From positions 1 through 37,004 of the IMG/VR virus record IMGVR_UViG_3300049043_000012: a stretch of 37,004 nt of DNA, one strand, 5' to 3'. A model generated the notes under the pieces. That model was not told where the DNA came from. It saw only the letters and a program-made list of their open reading frames with translations, and searched no databases. Position 1 is the stretch's first letter. Every line of letters starts with the position of its first letter. Below are positions 6,967-26,942 of this stretch, piece by piece. Source of the DNA: a virus. Made by a program: the position numbers and the translations under genes.

Positions 6967-7785
6967 TGCGTACACTTAAACGTAGCATTAGCAAAGCAGA
7001 GGTGGGTGGCGAACCATTGCCACCCGCTTTTGCGGCATTTGAACGGGCAGGAATTATCCTGCGCCGTGCAGAAATCACAATGGTTGCAGGCACTCCAGGT
7101 GCAGGCAAGTCATCAGTAGCACTGGCTATTGCAGCCAGAGCCAAGGTTCCTACGCTGTACTTCAGCGCAGATACCAATGCTCACACTATGGCAATGCGAC
7201 TACTAGCAATGTCTAGCCGTATCACACAAACAGCAGCAGAGCAGATGCTCAAGCGTGAGCCACAACAAGCAGAAGAAATACTGACCCTTAACAATCATTT
7301 GTTCTGGTCTTTTGAATCCACTTCGACTCTAAAAGATTTAGATGATGAGGTCAGTGCATTTGAAACTGTATGGGGTAGAAGTCCAACATTAATTGTCGTA
7401 GACAATCTAATGGACATAGCAATGGATGGTCACGAAGAATTCCAAGGTATGCGTGCAGCAATGAAGGAGTTGAAAGTATCTCGGAAGAGATACCAACTCA
7501 GCCGTGCTTGTTCTGCATCATGCTAAGGAAGGTTCAGAGGGCTATCCTTGCCAGCCACGTAGCGCCATTCAGGGTCTGGTAAACCAGATACCAGCAATGG
7601 TTCTCACTATCGGTCAGATGAAGCAAGGCGACGATACCTATCTCTGTGTAGCCCCAGTCAAGAACAGATACGGGCGAGCAGACCAGACAGGTAATAACTA
7701 TGTCAGCCTAGCCTTCAACCCTGACAGTATGTATCTAGACGATGTTCAAATCAAATATGCACAGGAGACTATGTATGGAAACTAA
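6966..7785 (+). CDS. DnaB/RecA-type replicative helicase ATPase, frameshifted
   Basis: ATG 6966 in a TAATG overlap. Residues 36-49 read EITMVAGTPGAGKS, a clear Walker A; TLIVVDN near 141-147 is Walker B; FSADTN near 66-71 corresponds to the segment after the first RecA strand in DnaB. An indel near 7475 separates this from VLVLHHAKEGSEGYPCQPRS (the H-x-x motif region) and VKNRYGRADQTGN, the K-x-R-x-G arginine-finger-like end typical of DnaB C-domains. About 275 residues, one RecA domain without the DnaB N-terminal domain. It should unwind the phage replication fork with the primase encoded at 8275. Confidence 0.8.
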
Positions 7786-7951
7786 AATATGGGACAACTC
7801 ATTCAGCCGTGAAGATGTAGAAGTTTTGCTAGGCAAAGCAATTACAGATGGTGAATGGGAGATTGTTGTAGATGAACTTTATAACAACGATACACTTTAC
7901 AATTCAGTAGCAGAACAAGTAGTTAAGGTAGCAAGAGCAGCACTTGAGTAA
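7775..7951 (+). CDS. Small acidic protein, unknown
   Basis: The 58-residue frame starts at ATG 7775, five bases after AGGAGAC; the earlier in-frame start at 7742 lies deep in the helicase gene and is less likely. The protein (SREDVEVLLGKAITDGEWEI, then VVDELYNNDTLYNSVAEQVV) is acidic and helical. It is placed between helicase and resolvase genes with overlaps on both sides. Family not recognised. Confidence 0.6.
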   Translation: METKIWDNSFSREDVEVLLGKAITDGEWEIVVDELYNNDTLYNSVAEQVVKVARAALE

Positions 7952-8288
7952 CCCAGCCAAAGCAAAAGGTAGCCAAGCAGAACGAGCAGTCGTTGCTTGG
8001 CTTAAAGCCAACGGCTACAAGTATGCAGACCGCAGACTCGCAGGAGCAACCTTAGACAAAGGCGATATAAGCGGTGTGCCAGGTGTAACCATAGAGATTA
8101 AGAACCACGCCAAGTTAGACTTGGCAGGTTGGGTAGCAGAATTAGAAGTAGAGATGAAGAATGATGATGCTTGGACAGGAACAGTAATTCATAAACGTAA
8201 AGGTAAAGGAGATGTTGGAGAATGGTATGCAACTATGCCAGCAAAAGTATGGTTAGCATTACTCCAGAAAGCAGATGGACAAACATAG
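7944..8288 (+). CDS. Holliday-junction-resolvase-like PD-(D/E)XK nuclease
   Basis: Intact 114-residue frame from TTG 7944. Residues E13 (GSQAERAVVAWLKANGY), D41 (DKGDISG) and E51-x-K53 (VTIEIKN) reproduce the active site of archaeal-type Hjr and related phage resolvases. R30/R31 lie in the loop that usually contacts DNA. HKRKGKG near residues 81-87 follows. It would resolve branched replication or recombination intermediates. It overlaps the primase start by 14 bases. Confidence 0.75.
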   Translation: MSNPAKAKGSQAERAVVAWLKANGYKYADRRLAGATLDKGDISGVPGVTIEIKNHAKLDLAGWVAELEVEMKNDDAWTGTVIHKRKGKGDVGEWYATMPAKVWLALLQKADGQT

Positions 8289-9118
8289 TATTGCTGCATA
8301 CCTAGAGTATGTAGGCGCCGCCGTGCCAGCACGGGGACACGGCTGGCGCAAAATCAAATGCCCATTCCATCCAGATAAACACGCTTCCGCTGGTGTTAAC
8401 TTTGATGAAGAACGATTTAAATGCCACGCTTGTGGCGTTAGCGGAGATGTATACGACTTAATTATGTACAGAGAAGGAGGCAACTATCGTGAGGCTGTCA
8501 AATTCGCAGAGACAATTTCTCCTACAGGCAGCGACAGAGTACGCTCAGCACATTCATCAAGCAGCAGACTATCTAACAACACGGGGTCTGTCGGTAGACG
8601 AAGCAAAGATGTTTCATTTAGGAGTAGTGGGCAATCCATTGCCAGGACACGAAGGCTACAAGGGTAAGTTAGTTATCCCTTATGTCACACCATCTGGTGT
8701 GGAAGACCTACGCTTTCGTAGTATTCACGGCGAAGACCCTAAGTACATTGGTCTGCCAGGGGCTAAGACAACTATGTTCAATGCTCAGGCAGTGCTAACA
8801 GCAGCAGGTTATATCTGCGTCACCGAAGGTGAGATTGACTGTATTACTACAGTAGTAAAGACAGGGCATCCTGCGGTAGGAATCCCAGGTGCTAATAATT
8901 GGAAGCCTTATTACAGCAAAATTCTTGACGACTTTGATACGGTTATTGTGCTAGCAGATGGCGATAATCCAGGACTAGAGTTCGGTAAAAAGATTAGCCG
9001 TGAGTTAGGTAATGTGAATATAGTCCAGATGCCAGAAGGTCACGATGTCAACAGCATTGTGCTACAGGAAGGAGTTGGTTGGTTAGATGAACGTATCAGA
9101 AAGTGCATATCAGAATAA
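8275..9118 (+). CDS. DnaG-like DNA primase (CHC2 zinc finger plus Toprim), frameshifted once
   Basis: ATG 8275. The zinc finger has C29-x2-H32 (CPFH) and C50-x2-C53 (CHAC). An indel near 8510 joins it to the catalytic half: LTTRGLSVDEAKMFHLGVVG, then LVIPYVTPSGVEDLRFRSIH. The Toprim motifs are VTEGEID and LADGDNPG (acidic D-x-D). About 280 residues, short compared with bacterial DnaG and without a C-terminal helicase-binding domain. With the helicase at 6966 it forms a split version of the T7 gp4 primase-helicase pair. The 5' end overlaps the resolvase gene. Confidence 0.85.
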
Positions 9119-14601: not shown

Positions 14602-15335
14602 TTATCTCTCCTTGCTGTTGTTCTTTCAGTTTATTTTTTAAATGTTCGTGTGCCCAGTACAATGCGTAGTAGTCATAGTCAAGACTAAAGCGTTTAATAT
14701 GCTTAACAACTGCACCAGTATGAGCGTGCAATGGCACGCCAGCATCTTTCATTCTGCGGAAGAAGATGATATCCTCACCAATGAAATGGTCATCATTACC
14801 ATCACCAGTCTTCAAAGAACATACCCTTGCCTGGGTTAGCCTCACGCATCTTCGGTATGATGGATTTGTGCATTAAGACAAAACCAAAGCCAGCATTATC
14901 TACCTTGATTACTTCATCATTAGGTAGTGGGTGGACATACTGAATCTGAAACTCAGATACATCATTGAATAAACAGGGGTAGGGCTTCATTAGACTGCCC
15001 TCATTGTCTTTGGATATGAAGTAGACACCACTTACTACAGGACGATTTACTTTATCTGCTGTCTTCCATAGTTTAGCCATAGCATCAAGAGTTAAGACTA
15101 TGTCTGAGTCAACCCAGAGTATCCAGTCTGTCTTGACTTTATCTGCCCAATGGTCAAAGAGTACTTGGCGTTGTCTGCCAATCTGATTACCTTGGACTCG
15201 GATACTGGGTACTGTATCGGCATACCATTGGCTGCGACCAGCAAGTACTGCTGTCATTAGCCCTTCAGTAAACTTGCCATCGGTGGTGCCATTATCGCAC
15301 CAACCGATAGCGACTGTATCTGACTTACCTATCAT
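14588..15335 (-). CDS. GT-A-fold glycosyltransferase, frameshifted once
   Basis: Start 15335 behind GGGGACA. VAIGWCDNGTTDGKFTEGLM opens a nucleotide-sugar-binding fold; VKTDWILWVDSDIVLT contains the D-x-D metal motif at residues 76-78. PVVSGVYFISKDNEGSLMKP and DNAGFGFVLMHKSIIPKM follow; an indel near 14815 leads to DDHFIGEDIIFFRRMKDAGV and HAHTGAVVKHIKRFSLDYDY, with the E-D of GEDIIFF fitting the acceptor-side acidic motif. About 248 residues. It may glycosylate virion tail proteins or host surface/teichoic polymers; location between tail genes favours a virion target (inference). Confidence 0.75.
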
Positions 15336-15350
15336 TGTCCCCTACTTTCG

Positions 15351-15577
15351 TTACTTACTCAGTGCTGCGATTTCTTCTGCGGTCAAACCAAGAGCAGCAA
15401 GTTTGGACTGTGCTGAAGCCTTGGCTTCTGCTGCTGCCTGTGCTGCTGCTTCTTCGGCAGCCTTTGCTTCTGCGGCTGCTTGTGCGTCTGCTTCCATCTG
15501 AGCAATCTCTTCTGCGGTAAGTTCTACCTCAGTTGACAGATACCTGTGGAGCAGTCCACTACGAGTTTAGTTGGCAT
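15351..15577 (-). CDS. Ala/Glu-rich coiled-coil protein next to tail genes, frameshifted
   Basis: Start 15577 behind GGAAAGG. MPTKLVVDCSTGICQL meets a stop; an indel near 15530 restores EVELTAEEIAQMEADAQAAA, then a long Ala/Glu/Lys helix and LAALGLTAEEIAALSK. About 75 residues. The repeated LTAEEIA box at both ends is a pattern I recall from small proteins beside phage tail-fibre genes. It may be a fibre-assembly chaperone; inference. Confidence 0.5.
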
Positions 15578-16115
15578 TGTTTTCCTTTCCTGAAGAGTTT
15601 TTGATTCCGTATAAAGTTGCTGACGAATACTGCACAATATTGAAACCATTTTGTTCTGTAAAACGCATTGAAGTAATGGCAGAAGTTCCAGTCCAAAGAT
15701 TAGCATATAACTGATTATAAGCCTCTGCTTGATTATCTTCTTGCGATATATCAAGTATTACAGATTTTTGAGAACTACTTGCATAATTAGGAATATAACA
15801 ATATAAGTTATTGAAAGTATTAGCAGTAGCATCTGCGGCTGGAACATACAAGTAAGTAATACCAGTTTCTCCCGTACCAGAATAAGTTGCAACAGATGAA
15901 CCATTTCCTCAGCATACTTCTCCGATTATAATTTGTAGAAGTATCGCCATTGAAAGTCAATTTCAACTGCGATTGTCTATAACCAGTTTGACTTGAACGG
16001 GCTGACAGTAATACACATAAATCCTTATAAGTTCCTGGAATACTTGTAAATTCAATATAAGCCGCCCCACCGTACCCACAGTCGTCGTGGCTATTGCTAC
16101 ATAAGTGTTTGCCAT
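15567..16115 (-). CDS. Adhesin-like tail protein, tandem copy 3, frameshifted
   Basis: Start 16115 (MANTYVAIATTTVG) and then, across indels, IEFTSIPGTYKDLCVLLSAR, LTFNGDTSTNY, GETGITYLYVPAADATANTF and NLWTGTSAITSMRF, ending with ATLYGIKNS. The module order matches the two following paralogues: IAT-x-T-V, EFTSI-x-x-TYxDL, NGDT, W-x-(S/G)T-(S/N)AITS, LYGIK. About 182 residues of beta-rich sequence. Likely a trimeric surface or receptor-contact jelly-roll-type module. The last 11 bases overlap the small Ala-rich gene. Confidence 0.6.
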
Positions 16116-16117
16116 AG

Positions 16118-16601
16118 TTACGCCGCCTTTATTCCGTAGAGAGTTACTGTTGTACCAGAAGAAAAGTCATTACCAGTATTCAATAGTTTCACAGAAGTAA
16201 CTGCTGAAGTAGAACGCCATACTCCAGTATTCATAAGAACAATTCCAGTAGCAAATCCACTTCTACCTAAGCCAGTTTTATAAGTAGTTGTATTTGAGTA
16301 ATTTAAAATATGTATTGTATTTGCTGTTGGAGTTGTAGAACTTTGACCTAAAAACATATTGGCGGTGTTTGTTCCTCTATCGCTTGCAGCAGAAGATGTT
16401 TCACCATAAACTCGTGTCCAAGAATAGTTATTTCCTGTATCACCATTCAGTTGTACTTTAGTATCATCGCTTGTTGATGAAGAAATAATTACGCCTTGAA
16501 TTAATAAATCTGTATAAGTACTAGGAATAGAAGTAAACTCTATATTTGCGGCTGAAGTAGTAAAGAGTAACAGTTGCTATTGGTTCATACGTTGATGCCA
16601 T
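16118..16601 (-). CDS. Adhesin-like tail protein, tandem copy 2, frameshifted
   Basis: Start 16601 in a TAATG overlap with copy 1. MASTYEPIATVT is separated by an indel near 16565 from ANIEFTSIPSTYTDLLIQGV, then KVQLNGDTGNNYSWTRVYGE, GVWRSTSAVTSVKLLNTGND and VTLYGIKAA. About 161 residues. It shares all module motifs with its two neighbours but diverges in the middle, suggesting duplication followed by diversification. Confidence 0.6.
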
Positions 16602-17186
16602 TATGCTGCCGCCTTTATTCCGTAGAGGGCGAAGGTTGAGTTTTGAGAAAAAGATGTTCCTGCACTGAGGAAAAAACTTCAAACTTGTTATAGCGTTTGT
16701 ACTTCTCCAGTTACCAGAATGAAATACGATTTCTCCACCAAATCCAGCAATAGTTCCGTTGTGGTCAACTCCGCCTAAATGTTCTAGTTGTTTTATATTT
16801 ATTAGTATTAGCATAATCTAAATATCAACTATGCCGCCACCAAAGAAATATGTTCCAGCAGCCGTCGTTCCACAAGCACCAGCAAATATTCTAGTTGCAT
16901 TTACTTCACCACCTGAACCAATACTAGAACCATCACCATTTAGTGAATGAGTACTATAATTGGTAGTGTCTCCATTTATATTTAGAAGAACCAAATCACG
17001 ACCATATGTTGCTCTATTTGATTGTGCAATATAACGAACTTGTAAATGAGTATAGGTGTTTGCTATTGAAGTAAACTCAACATTGGCAGCACCACCGCTT
17101 CCGACTGTGACAGTAGCAATGGATTCAAAAGAGGATGCTACAAGCAGTATTACCTGCCAGCATACTCCCATAGACAAGTCCTGCCA
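16601..17186 (-). CDS. Adhesin-like tail protein, tandem copy 1, frameshifted
   Basis: The likely start is ATG 17186 (MAGLVYGSMLAGNTA), with an indel before ASSFESIATVTVGSGGAANV. EFTSIANTYTHLQVRYIAQS, NINGDTTNYSTHSLNGDGSS and GEVNATRIFAGACGTTAAGT read continuously to about 16818. After an indel come HNGTIAGFGGEIVFHSGNWR and STNAITSLKF, and the end FALYGIKAAA at 16601. About 195 residues. The N-terminus is less certain than the rest because it differs from the MA-x-TY start of the other two copies. Confidence 0.55.
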
Positions 17187-17226
17187 TTCTTTATAGAATT
17201 AGCAGATAGTTTGTATACAGGACTCA

Positions 17227-17541
17227 CTAGGCAATCTCCACTCCAGAGATATGGAAGTTTACACCAGTTGTAGAAGCACTACCAGTAATAGTAGCAGCAG
17301 GGTTAGTTGCTGGGATTACCTGCTTCATATCAATCACTGTAGTGTCATAAGCACCAACAGATACTGATGAGGCGGTAGTAACGCCAGCAATAGATAACGT
17401 AAAGTTAGCCGTGCTACCAGTTGTGTTTGCTACCAATAGGTTGGTAACAATAGTCGTAGTGCTAGTATTGGGTTGGGTGTATAGGGTTGTTGATGTAGTC
17501 GCTGCTGCTGTGCGAGCGAGTACCTTAGTTGTTGTAGCCAT
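17227..17541 (-). CDS. Small beta-structured virion protein
   Basis: Intact 104-residue frame from 17541. MATTTKVLARTAAATTSTTL is followed by alternating hydrophobic/Thr-rich strands (TIVTNLLVANTTGSTANFTL), and the end FHISGVEIA. Short proteins of this kind are frequent in tail or head-decoration loci of phages with Thr-rich beta proteins. Specific role unknown. Confidence 0.6.
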   Translation of the reverse strand: MATTTKVLARTAAATTSTTLYTQPNTSTTTIVTNLLVANTTGSTANFTLSIAGVTTASSVSVGAYDTTVIDMKQVIPATNPAATITGSASTTGVNFHISGVEIA

Positions 17542-17557
17542 TAATTACTACCTTTCT

Positions 17558-19478
17558 TTACCAAGCGCTCATTATATTCATAATGGCAATGTCTATTTCA
17601 TTTGAACTGGAGTTTTTTACCATAAAAGCATCTGATGTTAGTTTGCTTAAACCAACAATAGTTGTAAGCTGTAGTGCCAGATGTAATTGTTGTTGTACCA
17701 AGTGTTGGGGCTGAATAACGCAGAAGCAACCGGCCATTCCAAGCCTGTTGCCGTTGCAGAATTGACTGCCAAAACATACCCATTGGTTGATGCAACTGTA
17801 AGTTTAGACGCAGTATCATTTGCAGTTCCAACAATTAAATCACCTTTAGCGTCAAATGTATTGATTTAGGAATTGCAGCATTAGCCAAATCGTAGGCTGA
17901 CTTAACAGAGTTAGGTGTAGCAGCAGTTGTGACGCTAGTAGATGCTGTACTGTCAGAAGTTGAACTGCGCCAGATTGTGCGGTAGTCGCTGCCTGGATTG
18001 AGATAGTTACATCTCCACCTGTGCCACCACCTGTAATTGGGGAAGTTACGTTAACCGCCGTAATATCTCCAGTCTGTGCAGCAATCCATTCAAGACCAGT
18101 AGCGGTAGCAGAGTTAACACTTAAAACATAACCATTGGTAGTTGCTGCTGCTAGTCGGGCTGCTGTATCGTTTAGCGCTAGCAACAATCAAGTCACCCTT
18201 AGCATCAAAGATAGTTGCCTGTATTGCACCAGCAAGAGTTGCTGCAGCAGACGCTGCTGAAGTAGCAGCACTAGCAGCAGATGTAGCAGCGCTAGATGCT
18301 GACGTTGCAGCACTTGAGGCAGAGGTAGCAGCAGCGCTAGCCGATGTAGCAGAGGCTGTGGCCGATGTAGCCGAAGCCGTGGCTGAGGTAGCAGAAGATG
18401 TCGCTGAAGTACTTGCTGAGTTAGCAGAGGTTAAAGCAGATGAGGCTGAGGTAGCAGCCGAAGTAGCAGATGTTGCTGCTGCAGCAGCTGTGCTAGCAAC
18501 TGTTCAGACACTTGCTGCTGCACTAGTAGCACTGGTTGCCGCTGCTGTCGCAGAAGCCGCTGCAGAGGTTGCAGAGGTGGCTGCTGCTGTGGCTGAGGTA
18601 GATGCACTGTTGGCGCTAGTTAGGGCGCTAGAGGCGCTTGTAGAGGCGCTAGAGGCACTTGTAGCGGCACTGGCAGCACTTGTGGCAGCCGAGTGCTGCA
18701 CTAGTGGCTGCTGCCTATGAGCAGAGCCTAGGATTGAGTCTACGTAATCTTTAGGGGTAGCAACAGGATGCAACCATACCTGCACTGGATAGTCCAGTAA
18801 ATGCTGGTGAGCCAGAGATGGAGGGCTAGTTAAAGTCTTGTTGGTTAGAGTCTGAGTTGCTGTAGCAATGACTACCGTACCTGTCAGGTATTAGGTAGGG
18901 TGATTGTGTTGTCCTGAGTTGGGTCAACTACGGTCAGGGTTGTCTCATAGTCATCTGCTGTAGCACCTTCAAATACGATGCTTGCATCAACACCGAGCAC
19001 CAGAGATACTTGGGTTAGTAATCGTTGGCGAGGTAAGGGTTTTGTTGGTTAGAGTTTGTGTCTTAGAGTGTACCTACAACAACACCTTCGCCAGGCGGCG
19101 ATAGCCGTGCATATCGTGGGCAGTACCACTACCATCATTGTATGAGCCAGTTGCTTCAGCGTGGAGGTTAGCATCTCGGTAATCTCTACCAATAGCCATA
19201 TGACGAACAACTGCACCAGCGCTATGGTCTTGTGCTGTTGAACCATCTATAGCACGTGTGATTGTAAAGGTATTAGTAGATACCGCCGTGGCATCTAAAC
19301 TTTCTTCAAGCGCCTGTATCAACATCGAATAACTAACGTGAATGTTCTACCTGCTGGGATAGTTACACCACCAAGTAAACCTGTACCAGAAACCACCGTC
19401 ATAGACGTGGCTCCAGATGTGATAGCGCCAGTTAACGTAGTTCTGCTGGCTGCGAGACAAGTATTGCCGTGTTGTCAT
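17558..19478 (-). CDS. Long tail fibre with Ala/Ser/Thr repeat, frameshifted
   Basis: Start 19478 (MTTRQYLS). After an indel the N-terminal module reads RTTLTGAITSGATSMTVVSG and TFTITRAIDGSTAQDHSAGA, then VVRHMAIGRDYRDANLHAEA. Two TLTNKTLTSP boxes bracket ASIVFEGATADDYETTLTVV. The shaft is an Ala/Ser/Thr repeat of about 150 residues (18240-18720). The C-terminal third repeats a module twice: FDAKGDLIVASANDTAARLA and FDAKGDLIVGTANDTASKLT, each followed by NGYVL and NSATATGLEW, ending DIAIMNIMSAW at 17558. About 640 residues. This is a classic trimeric fibre architecture; the C-terminus should contact the host. Confidence 0.8.
18240..18720 (-). repeat. Ala/Ser/Thr low-complexity repeat encoding the fibre shaft
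   Basis: Imperfect repeats of about 21 bases encode units such as ATSASSA and ATSATSA on the - strand. The antisense strand is also open over most of this stretch because of the GCN/ANC codon bias, so that frame should not be taken as a gene. Repeat number may vary between related phages through slippage. Confidence 0.7.
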
Positions 19479-24507: not shown

Positions 24508-26067
24508 TTAGTTAGTTCGCAAGCCACAGTTCTGCTCAGGGAAGGCAGGCTGGCTCTTGCTATCGGTCTTATACGCCGCGTGGGGCCGATTGGTCCACGT
24601 CGGGAATCTATATATTGCCGCCAATTTGGCTAGTTAGTGAAGTTCTGACCAAGTCCACTTGTACCACTGAAAATGCTGCAATTTCACGCTCGTATTAGAC
24701 GCTTGACGCTTACGCTGTGCGGATGCAAGCTGAATTAAATACTTCTTGTTCTGCTTCTAGCTAAGTCCATATCCTTCAAGAACATTGCCATAAATATCAG
24801 ATAGTTTCTTGCACGTGGCAATATATCCGCAATAGTTGCATAACCCTTTTGTGCTTCTGCCTGGCTAATACCTTGTGCTAGCCAAGTTGCTCAGCAACAG
24901 TAACACCTGCTGTTAATGCCTTGACGACTGCAGCAGCACCAATTTCTGCAGCAGCAATCTGACGTTCGAATCTTCTGGAACTTGTTGATTAGGGTCAAGA
25001 ACATAAGCAACTAAGTCAGTATTGCCAATACCATAATAATCCTTAAGCATTGTAGCAAATAGCAGGGTCAGCATTTTGAACACGCTGTACTGCCATTACT
25101 ACACGATTAGAAAGTTCTGCTGGCAGATACATCGTTAGCAATAAACTGGCTAACATAATCATCTGTATCAAATTGTTTTAATCCATATGTACGTAATATC
25201 TGACGGTATCCATCTTCAAGATTAAGATATTCGGCAGGGAGTTAATACTTGTAAACCTTTTTTGATGCGTTCTTGATCGCCTTTAAATCGGCGCTGATAA
25301 TCTTCTGTTTCTTGCAAAGCAAGAGTAATAGTTGATTCAGTTGCACCTTCTTGAGCAAGCCGTTTAATTGTAGGAATAAGTCCAGTTAGATCAATACTTT
25401 GTAAATCTATCAGTAAGAACATTCATAATAGACTGACGCTGCATAGCCTGTTCTTTTTCACGGGCTGCTTGCTGTTCAGCATATTGTTTAGCCAAAATAT
25501 CTGCAGCACCCATACCACCAAGCAGCAGGAGTCCCAGGCATATATACCTTACCAGCGGTATTAATATTACCTGCAGCAGATATTGACCTATTAAGTAGCA
25601 TCTCGCACGCCGCTTTAGCAGCAGCAGCGGCTGCTGCATCTGCTGCTGCTTTTGCTTTTGCTAACTCTGCTTCTAGTCTTGCTTTCTCTTCAGCGGCTGC
25701 TTTGGCTGCTGCTGCAGCGGCAGCATCTGCATCGGCTTTAGCCTGGACGTGCTGCTCTCTTTTTCTGCAGCCTTTTTGCTGCTTCTGATTCTGCCAATGC
25801 TTGTCGAAACTCTTGCATTTTCCGCTTGTTCTTTTGCTAATTGCTTCTAATCTTGCTGCTTTAGCAAGTTCAGCCTCTGCTTCAGACGCAGCAATGTCAG
25901 CCTCTGATGGTGGCTCAGGTGCACCCATAGATGCTTCTTCGCCCATACGCCAACGTGCTACATCAAATGAAGCAGCTCAGTAATACTGGTGTTTCGGCTG
26001 CTTTAGCAGCAGCAATTTCTTGAGCAAGCCTCGCTCGGGTTGCTGCTCTTTCATCTGCTGAAGGCAT
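24508..26067 (-). CDS. Ala-rich coiled-coil virion protein, frameshifted
   Basis: Start 26067 in a TAATG overlap. MPSADERAATRARLAQEIAA, then GEEASMGAPEPPSEADIAAS. A long Ala/Glu/Lys coiled coil follows (about 25600-25900; KAAAEEKARLEAELAKAKAA). Then PGTPAAGGMGAADILAKQYA, DLTGLIPTIKRLAQEGATES, RRFKGDQERIKKGLQVL. After more indels: YLNLEDGYRQILRTYGLKQF, DTDDYVSQFIANDVS, DYYGIGNTDLVAYVLDPNQQ and QAEAQKGYATIADILPRAK; the end is YKTDSKSQPAFPEQNCGLRT at 24508. About 519 residues with at least eight indels. Probably internal virion or ejection protein; inference from size, composition and position. Confidence 0.55.
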
Positions 26068-26942
26068 TAGACAAGACCCCAATCACTCATTACTTTATAG
26101 GCAAGATTATCTCACTGTAGTTGTAGCATTATTTGTAAGTTCCCATTCAGGACTCATACGTAATCTCACGCTCAAATTGCCATAGTGGTTTAACTGCTGG
26201 CTTTCCATCAGGACCGTACATAGGTCGGCAATGCAGCACGTAGTCTCGGGTCTTCAAATGTAACTGAGTCAGCATCTCGTTCAAGAACACTAGCAATAGC
26301 GCCTTTATATGCTGACGCCAAAGAATCTACAGTTATACCAGCCTTAATCCGGTCTGTGGCATATCCAGGAAATGCGCTGGGTGGCAAGATTACGTACTTC
26401 ATCTTCAATATCTTCTGTAGTGGTTCTGCCCAAGAAAAGGTCTTGTGATTTTCTGTGGCCCAGTATTTATCATCAAGATATTGACCCACACCAAAAGAAT
26501 TAGCATAAGCCTTTGTGGCGGAGGTATCCCGAAGTACTTCCACACCATAACCAGTAACTAAATTAGAACTAACAATTAATTCTTTAAGTTGGTCTTCTGA
26601 CATAGCAGAGTCATAGGCTTTTGCTGCTAAACCATCAAATAATTTAGCATCCATCTTAAGACCAGCACTAACTAAACTTCTTAACGAGTAGCAAGAAGAC
26701 TGTACTTATTTAAACCATCTGTATAGACACCAGGCTGTGATGTTTTAGCCTGTAATCGGGTACGGGCTGTAGCATTATTATTCTGATAGAAATTACTTTG
26801 AAGAATAAGAGAACGCATATCATCAAAGCGTCCTTCTCTGATAGGCTTTCCAGGCTTCTTGCAATTTAGTATCAATATTTTCTTAAGAGCAAGGAGCATA
26901 CCAATTTCTTCAACTGTTTGCACCAGTTACTGCTTCAGCCAT
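26067..26942 (-). CDS. Putative internal virion protein, frameshifted
   Basis: Start 26942 (MAEAVTGANS). Segments in order: EEIGMLLALKKIL, MRSLILQSNFYQNNNATART, TSQPGVYTDGLNKYSL, LFDGLAAKAYDSAMSEDQLK, GYGVEVLRDTSATKAYANSF and FPGYATDRIKAGITVDSLAS. Then FEDPRLRAALPTYV, DGKPAVKPLWQFE and YKVMSDWGLV at the end. About 291 residues, mainly helical. It lies in a run of structural genes and overlaps both neighbours. No enzymatic motif seen. Confidence 0.55.

Follow-up and report, generated by a model that had tools for sequence, protein, structure and literature searches.

The binding domains at the tips of phage fibres are normally homotrimers, built from three copies of one chain encoded by one gene. 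A heterotrimeric binding head is found in human C1q, in which three tandem paralogous genes (C1QA, C1QC and C1QB) encode beta-jelly-roll heads that assemble together. The closest viral system to the locus described here is that of Dishui Lake virophage 2 (DSLV2; QIG59353–QIG59355), which has a tripartite heterotrimeric tail (J Virol 2025, PMC12724248). The 1:1:1 heterotrimer was reported from AlphaFold3 and co-purification, and three genes of this type are kept together in 45 aquatic virophages (PMC12724248).

We analysed a virus record of 37,004 bases, hereafter the window, that carries a comparable trio. As in DSLV2, three consecutive tail genes of similar size are related to one another, lie in one orientation and come from an aquatic virus; that such genes are kept together also holds for the family to which this trio belongs. 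In DSLV2, however, all three proteins have the T4 gp37-like collar domain PF07484, which is absent at E ≤ 0.1 from the trio proteins scanned against Pfam (the three of the window and 51 class-2 relatives). The carrier is here a tailed phage instead of a virophage, sets may also be doubled or tripled, and single subunits are exchanged. Because PF07484 marks the DSLV2 system and is absent here, we do not file the trio as a DSLV2-type member; by analogy, it may nevertheless work like the DSLV2 tail, and we infer a heterotrimer from the comparisons below. The likeness to C1q is also one of working only, with no homology claimed, and C1q is not among the Foldseek matches listed. No tailed phage with a heterotrimeric tip made of three paralogs was found in the titles and abstracts searched, an absence that is no proof of novelty. 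We propose, with a probability of roughly two in three, that the trio encodes the three different chains of one 1:1:1 heterotrimeric receptor-binding tip.

Organization of the three genes

An initial annotation, made from the sequence of the window, had described three tandem paralogous adhesin-like genes at 15567–17186. The trio is indeed located there, but gene 1 begins further upstream and the trio covers 15567–17227. Gene 1 (class 1; 16601..17227, minus strand) encodes an N-terminal extension (VSPVYKLSANSIKNGRT..VYGSMLAGNTA..) followed by a beta domain, and groups in the class-1 clade with 67 relatives. It starts at a GTG (17227–17225) overlapping the preceding gene's stop (TAGTG, 17229–17225), and its anchor-like N-terminus (VSPVYKLSANSIKNG...) matches that of gene 1 of the relative L073. 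Gene 2 (class 2; 16118..16601, minus strand) and gene 3 (class 3; 15567..16115, minus strand) consist of the domain only and fall in the class-2 and class-3 clades, respectively. The TAA stop of gene 1 overlaps the ATG of gene 2 at 16601 (TAATG); gene 2 ends with a TAA at 16120–16118, and gene 3 begins two bases later with an ATG at 16115. The C-terminus of gene 3 in the window, LYGIKNSSGKENNAN, extends a few residues past the usual LYGIKNS end.

All five motifs of the ordered set that had been proposed occur, in the same order, in these three adjacent minus-strand genes. The first reads IATVTV, IATVT and IATTTV in genes 1, 2 and 3, respectively, and the fourth WRSTNAITS, WRSTSAVTS and WTGTSAITS, while NGDT and LYGIK are present in all three. 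The second, given initially as EFTSI-x-x-TYxDL, recurs at its place (EFTSIANTYTHL, EFTSIPSTYTDL and EFTSIPGTYKDL, respectively), but gene 1 has TYxHL, and this H/D difference turns out to be diagnostic of the class. Once the pieces are joined across frame breaks, and leaving aside the N-terminal extension of gene 1, the alignable proteins comprise 178, 159 and 177 residues. Pairwise full-length BLASTP of the three window proteins gives identities of 40% (E 3e-31), 35% (9e-21) and 36% (2e-15), a similarity that, as judged from sequence, lies far beyond chance. Among the matches listed, the closest relative of gene 2 is L004, with 62% identity. Two trivial explanations were considered and rejected: chance motif matches are ruled out by the full-length alignments, and an assembly duplication, which would have left identical copies, by the 35–40% identity between the copies and by the orthologous trios in hundreds of independent contigs.

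Genomic setting and frame breaks

The window is largely collinear with two cultured Planktophila phages, LanE43-AprE7 and LanE43-AprF5 (OX376640 and OX376641; hereafter E7 and F5), which belong to a group of WhiB-encoding actinophages (PMC10202952). The gene order in E7 is a head–tail adaptor-like protein, a tail fibre (phrog_38058), a 108-aa gene, two Gly-rich proteins and the trio, followed downstream by a small coiled-coil gene, a 128-aa gene, a glycosyltransferase and a large tail gene. Given this order, the trio lies in the tail-fibre module. The earlier assignment to a tail-fibre locus thus stands: upstream of the trio are the adaptor, the tail fibre and a small fibre-associated gene, to which E7 adds the Gly-rich proteins.

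In the window, the gene directly upstream of the trio (17227..17541, minus strand) encodes 104 residues and has a weak relation to tail-fibre families via its E7 counterpart, the 108-aa gene at a similar place, which matches phrog_11338 and phrog_693. It is preceded by the tail fibre protein gene (17558..19478, minus strand), the counterpart of the 559-aa E7 fibre (phrog_38058, tail fiber protein), which is frame-broken and encodes alanine-rich coiled-coil-like repeats. Directly downstream of the trio is a small coiled-coil-like gene of about 75 residues (15351..15577, minus strand; MPTKLVVDCSTGI...ELTAEEIAQMEADA...LAALGLTAEEIAALSK, with a frame break near 15545), and then a frame-broken glycosyltransferase-like gene (14621..15317, minus strand), 58–59% identical to its E7 counterpart. 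In about 160 of 189 relatives, among them L004, L013 and L040, the trio is likewise followed by a gene of this type, small (mostly 70–89 aa) and acidic/alanine-rich. The examples scanned from relatives have no PHROG or Pfam match; the product is probably a coiled coil and possibly a trimer assembly factor. As to hosts, a scan of reference genomes returned three contigs in binned genomes (Polynucleobacter and an uncultured actinobacterium), which are likely to be binned virus contigs and therefore indicate no firm host beyond Planktophila.

None of the three trio genes is a single open frame in the window: on the minus strand, gene 1 is broken near 17186, 17140, 16817 and 16673, gene 2 near 16562 and gene 3 near 16070 and 15912. 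Other genes of the window show similar breaks with respect to the E7 proteins, the portal gene being spread over two frames, the capsid gene over three pieces and the large tail gene over several; alignment of the E7 proteins to the window shows the same for the adaptor, fibre and glycosyltransferase genes. The trio genes are intact in nearly all relatives, where almost every match spans the full open frame. Since the whole contig is similarly broken and the relatives are nearly always intact, the breaks in the trio look like sequencing errors of the record rather than programmed frameshifts or pseudogenes. Throughout the region checked (12600–35700, from terminase to tail), nearly every long gene is split into at least two frames with respect to E7. 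In this the record resembles a long-read contig that has not been corrected, and any claim of a short ORF or of overlapping genes in the window therefore calls for caution.

Relatives, gene order and copy number

Scans of viral contigs and metagenomes, seeded with family members and reporting at most the 80 best matches each without regard to array size, pointed to more than 500 relatives per scan. Searches of Pfam, PHROGs and the PDB gave no credible sequence match for the family; two relatives match phrog_31512, a family of unknown function, and the Pfam scan of the three window proteins gave only a chance match (E 0.055). We built a maximum-likelihood tree from the window and 67 relatives with three complete copies (68 loci, 204 genes). 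The 68 first genes, the 68 second genes and the 68 third genes form three separate, position-specific clades (SH-aLRT 98, 99 and 98, respectively), and no gene has moved between positions in this set. Class profiles assign 204/204 genes to the right position, by 61 bits or more, a consistency check and not an independent test because the same 204 genes built the profiles. The tree thus argues for a triplication that is both ancient and ordered.

Copy number was compared across related phages, as had been suggested at the outset. There are 120 distinct arrays that count as complete, with 1.5 kb or more of contig to either side; 107 of them hold three genes, nine hold six and two hold nine. The two exceptions are L246, in which gene 1 is split in two, and L267, whose sole match lies in a stalked fibre, as its C-terminal domain. 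According to the class profiles, the larger arrays read 123123 or 123123123. What is retained and duplicated is the whole 1-2-3 set, rather than a single gene.

One lineage departs from this reading. In L193 (5429–6998) and L205 (5045–7015), class scores for the first set are ambiguous, giving 2-1-3 or 1-1-3; it still comprises three genes, and the lineage reads 213123. The 1-2-3 order is not absolute, given these two loci, which are possibly a case of re-assigned subunit identity.

Within the set, the genes are closely spaced and translationally coupled, and the classes carry distinct features. Of 216 distinct trios, 87% (1/2) and 83% (2/3) have the junction at −10 to +5 nt, the modal junction being TAATG. 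An N-terminal extension of about 20–40 residues is usual in class 1, and the other two classes start directly with the domain. An N-terminal motif, SLKTG..SLLVGN (S[IL]K..LLVGN), is present in six class-1 genes and in ten neighbouring Gly-rich proteins, and in 0/134 class-2 or class-3 genes; it may represent a shared docking peptide. At core column 28, the residue is H in 96% of class 1, D in 99% of class 2 and D in 100% of class 3; column 56 is H, T and R, and column 82 is D, variable and Y, in classes 1, 2 and 3, respectively. These class-fixed residues imply interfaces that are not equivalent.

In L029, L086, L089, L105 and other loci, a Gly-rich gene occupies a gap of about 800–900 bp between genes 2 and 3. 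Such genes are present in many of the 42 wide-gap trios, and those of their products that were read end in SGxVIVRY. The set thus has another stable arrangement besides the compact one.

Predicted fold of the trio domain

AlphaFold2 models the class-2 protein of L004 as a 12-stranded all-beta domain (pLDDT 92.8, pTM 0.88). The closest structures found by Foldseek with this model are predicted proteins of uncultured tailed phages (TM-scores of about 0.75–0.92), several of which are annotated as fibre, collagen-repeat or Stf-repeat proteins. They include unannotated BFVD proteins of uncultured Caudovirales phages (A0A6J7WWM7, A0A6J5NFQ6 and others), of similar length to the trio proteins, with TM-scores of 0.89–0.92 and 29–31% identity, which probably belong to the same family. 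The fold search against the PDB gave only weak matches, mostly to ConA-like sandwiches and also to galectin, laminin-G and inulinase C-terminal domains (TM ≤ 0.51 for the ConA/galectin-like resemblance); we do not take them as proof of a lectin function.

Remote matches of the trio domain (about 30–64 bits) are located at the C-terminus of stalked fibres, some of them in contigs that also bear a trio. In these fibres (for example L045, 9273–10025, and L146, 10794–11588), a C-terminal beta domain follows a TGDI..ARLGIGSTGQVL stem; it is a remote sequence match of the same domain and belongs to the same fold class by Foldseek. A stalked fibre is one chain with its own stem and without class differentiation, assumed to be homotrimeric as phage fibres are in general, whereas the trio consists of three stemless chains. 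The trio domain is thus predicted to share its all-beta fold with phage fibre tips, and the model and the Foldseek matches agree with the initial description of the genes as adhesin-like.

The three trio genes of L004, at 7416–8993, share one frame, and reading their stops as glycine yields a fused 1-2-3 chain of 501 residues. Its model has a pLDDT of 88.6 and a pTM of 0.66 (eight full-length alignment rows, no control chain), compared with a value of roughly 0.35–0.4 that we would expect, as a rough estimate of our own, for three unplaced domains; this is only suggestive of at least two domains being placed relative to each other. The three domains all come out of the modelling as all-beta domains of one kind, which bears indirectly on the concern raised initially that the copies might belong to unrelated folds.

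Sequence variation and subunit exchange

The mean pairwise identity is 0.444, 0.434 and 0.440 within classes 1, 2 and 3, respectively, i.e. the three classes diverge equally. The trio is hypervariable relative to the flanking genes, in line with the diversification put forward initially: in the pairs L123/L150, L180/L233 and L088/L101, the flanks are 93–97% identical at the nucleotide level but the trio proteins share only 46–69% of their amino acids. DNA similarity persists at the gene junctions in such pairs. Moreover, in 15 mosaic pairs one or two subunits are at least 90% identical and another less than 75%, the mark of single-subunit replacement.

Genes resembling HNH homing endonucleases are inserted in the 1/2 or 2/3 junctions of L015, L070 and L087, and also of L022, L116, L142 and L199. 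It is plausible that these endonucleases drive the exchange of adhesin genes.

A proposed heterotrimeric tip and its alternatives

The heterotrimer is our preferred reading because of the number three, the fixed identity of the chains, their coupling, their equal variability and their relationship to fibre tips. Each chain would essentially be one all-beta tip domain such as those with which phage tail fibres end at the C-terminus. After an ancient triplication of the gene, the copies would have ceased to be interchangeable, and one chain from every class would associate laterally with the other two, giving a pseudo-threefold heterotrimer of 1:1:1 stoichiometry. The N-terminal extension of class 1 probably docks this trimer on the virion, and translational coupling would keep the subunits equimolar. 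The outward-facing parts of all three chains would vary rapidly through single-subunit replacement at the conserved junctions, and would determine the host surface that the tip binds. The sequences themselves show that the genes are paralogs, that they keep a fixed order and come in multiples of three, that they have class-specific residues and close junctions, and that they are hypervariable and exchange single subunits; from this we infer the 1:1:1 stoichiometry, the threefold arrangement, docking by chain 1 and binding to the host surface.

The same fixed order, equimolar coupling, duplication by sets and restriction of the N-terminal extension to class 1 are also predicted by a fibre of three stacked homotrimers, one per class in the order 1-2-3, with class 1 next to the virion and class 3 forming the tip. 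We consider such a stack unlikely. Its buried base should be far more conserved than its tip, yet the divergence is equal in the three classes, all of which are hypervariable between near-identical phages. The H/D/D pattern at one equivalent column is better suited to asymmetric lateral contacts, and a stack fits DSLV2 less well, a 1:1:1 complex having been found there.

Less probable still is a repertoire, possibly switchable, in which each gene encodes a homotrimeric adhesin of its own, independent of the others and specific for a different receptor. It would account for three divergent adhesin-like genes, each of them variable, and for the occurrence of two or three sets in one phage. However, arrays of 1, 2, 4 or 5 genes, gene conversion between positions and changes of order would then be expected, and essentially nothing of the kind is present in the 120 complete arrays or in the tree; multiples of three would also be left unexplained. 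On reading the region and its neighbouring genes, we noticed no switching device, be it an invertible segment, a recombinase, a DGR or a phase-variation device. The initial annotation had hesitated between a heteromeric adhesin and a switchable repertoire. Order, multiples of three and the lack of exchange between classes strongly favour the heteromer, while switching is disfavoured, with no such device noticed in the region read, no gene conversion between classes and single genes neither gained nor lost. Finally, a role in decorating the head or virion, or as another surface factor that may bind the glycans of particles rather than the host, is very improbable: beta proteins as small as these can serve as capsid decoration and the folds resemble lectin-like beta sandwiches, if only weakly, but the trio sits between the tail-fibre genes and a glycosyltransferase with a large tail gene, a homologous domain is found at the tip of stalked fibres and hypervariability is typical of receptor-binding proteins.

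If the heterotrimer is correct, the trio would show how a symmetric adhesin turns asymmetric, and also why: one exchange would alter one third of the binding surface. The broader proposition, that a widespread group of freshwater phages uses an obligate heterotrimer of hypervariable paralogs to change host range combinatorially, one chain at a time, and adds spare tips only as whole 1-2-3 sets, seems to us evenly balanced. The family is common in viral metagenomes and includes phages of abundant freshwater actinobacteria that are hard to culture; with no fitting family in Pfam or PHROGs, it would offer a simple sequence handle on host-range determinants.

The trio in phages E7 and F5

In E7 and F5, an intact 1-2-3 trio occupies the position that corresponds to the trio of the window; it lies at 25320–26916 in E7. 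Their gene 1 is only about 43–47% identical to that of the window. The trio is not described in the available part of the isolation paper, which gives a single host strain, Planktophila LanE-43, for the isolation of both phages (PMC10202952). Their trios are identical (over 138 residues for gene 1, as the F5 record begins inside this gene). This is consistent with a link to the host, for one pair only, and is unspecific because several neighbouring genes are also 100% identical.

The two phages also differ in an island of 8 kb that separates the portal region from the capsid gene (8727–16928 in L084, compared with L249; E7 and F5, respectively). It encodes a 1764-aa protein with no PHROG or Pfam match. 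Over the island there is no or almost no protein similarity between the two phages, and the rest of their genomes is mostly 95–100% identical, a difference that the isolation paper notes too (PMC10202952).
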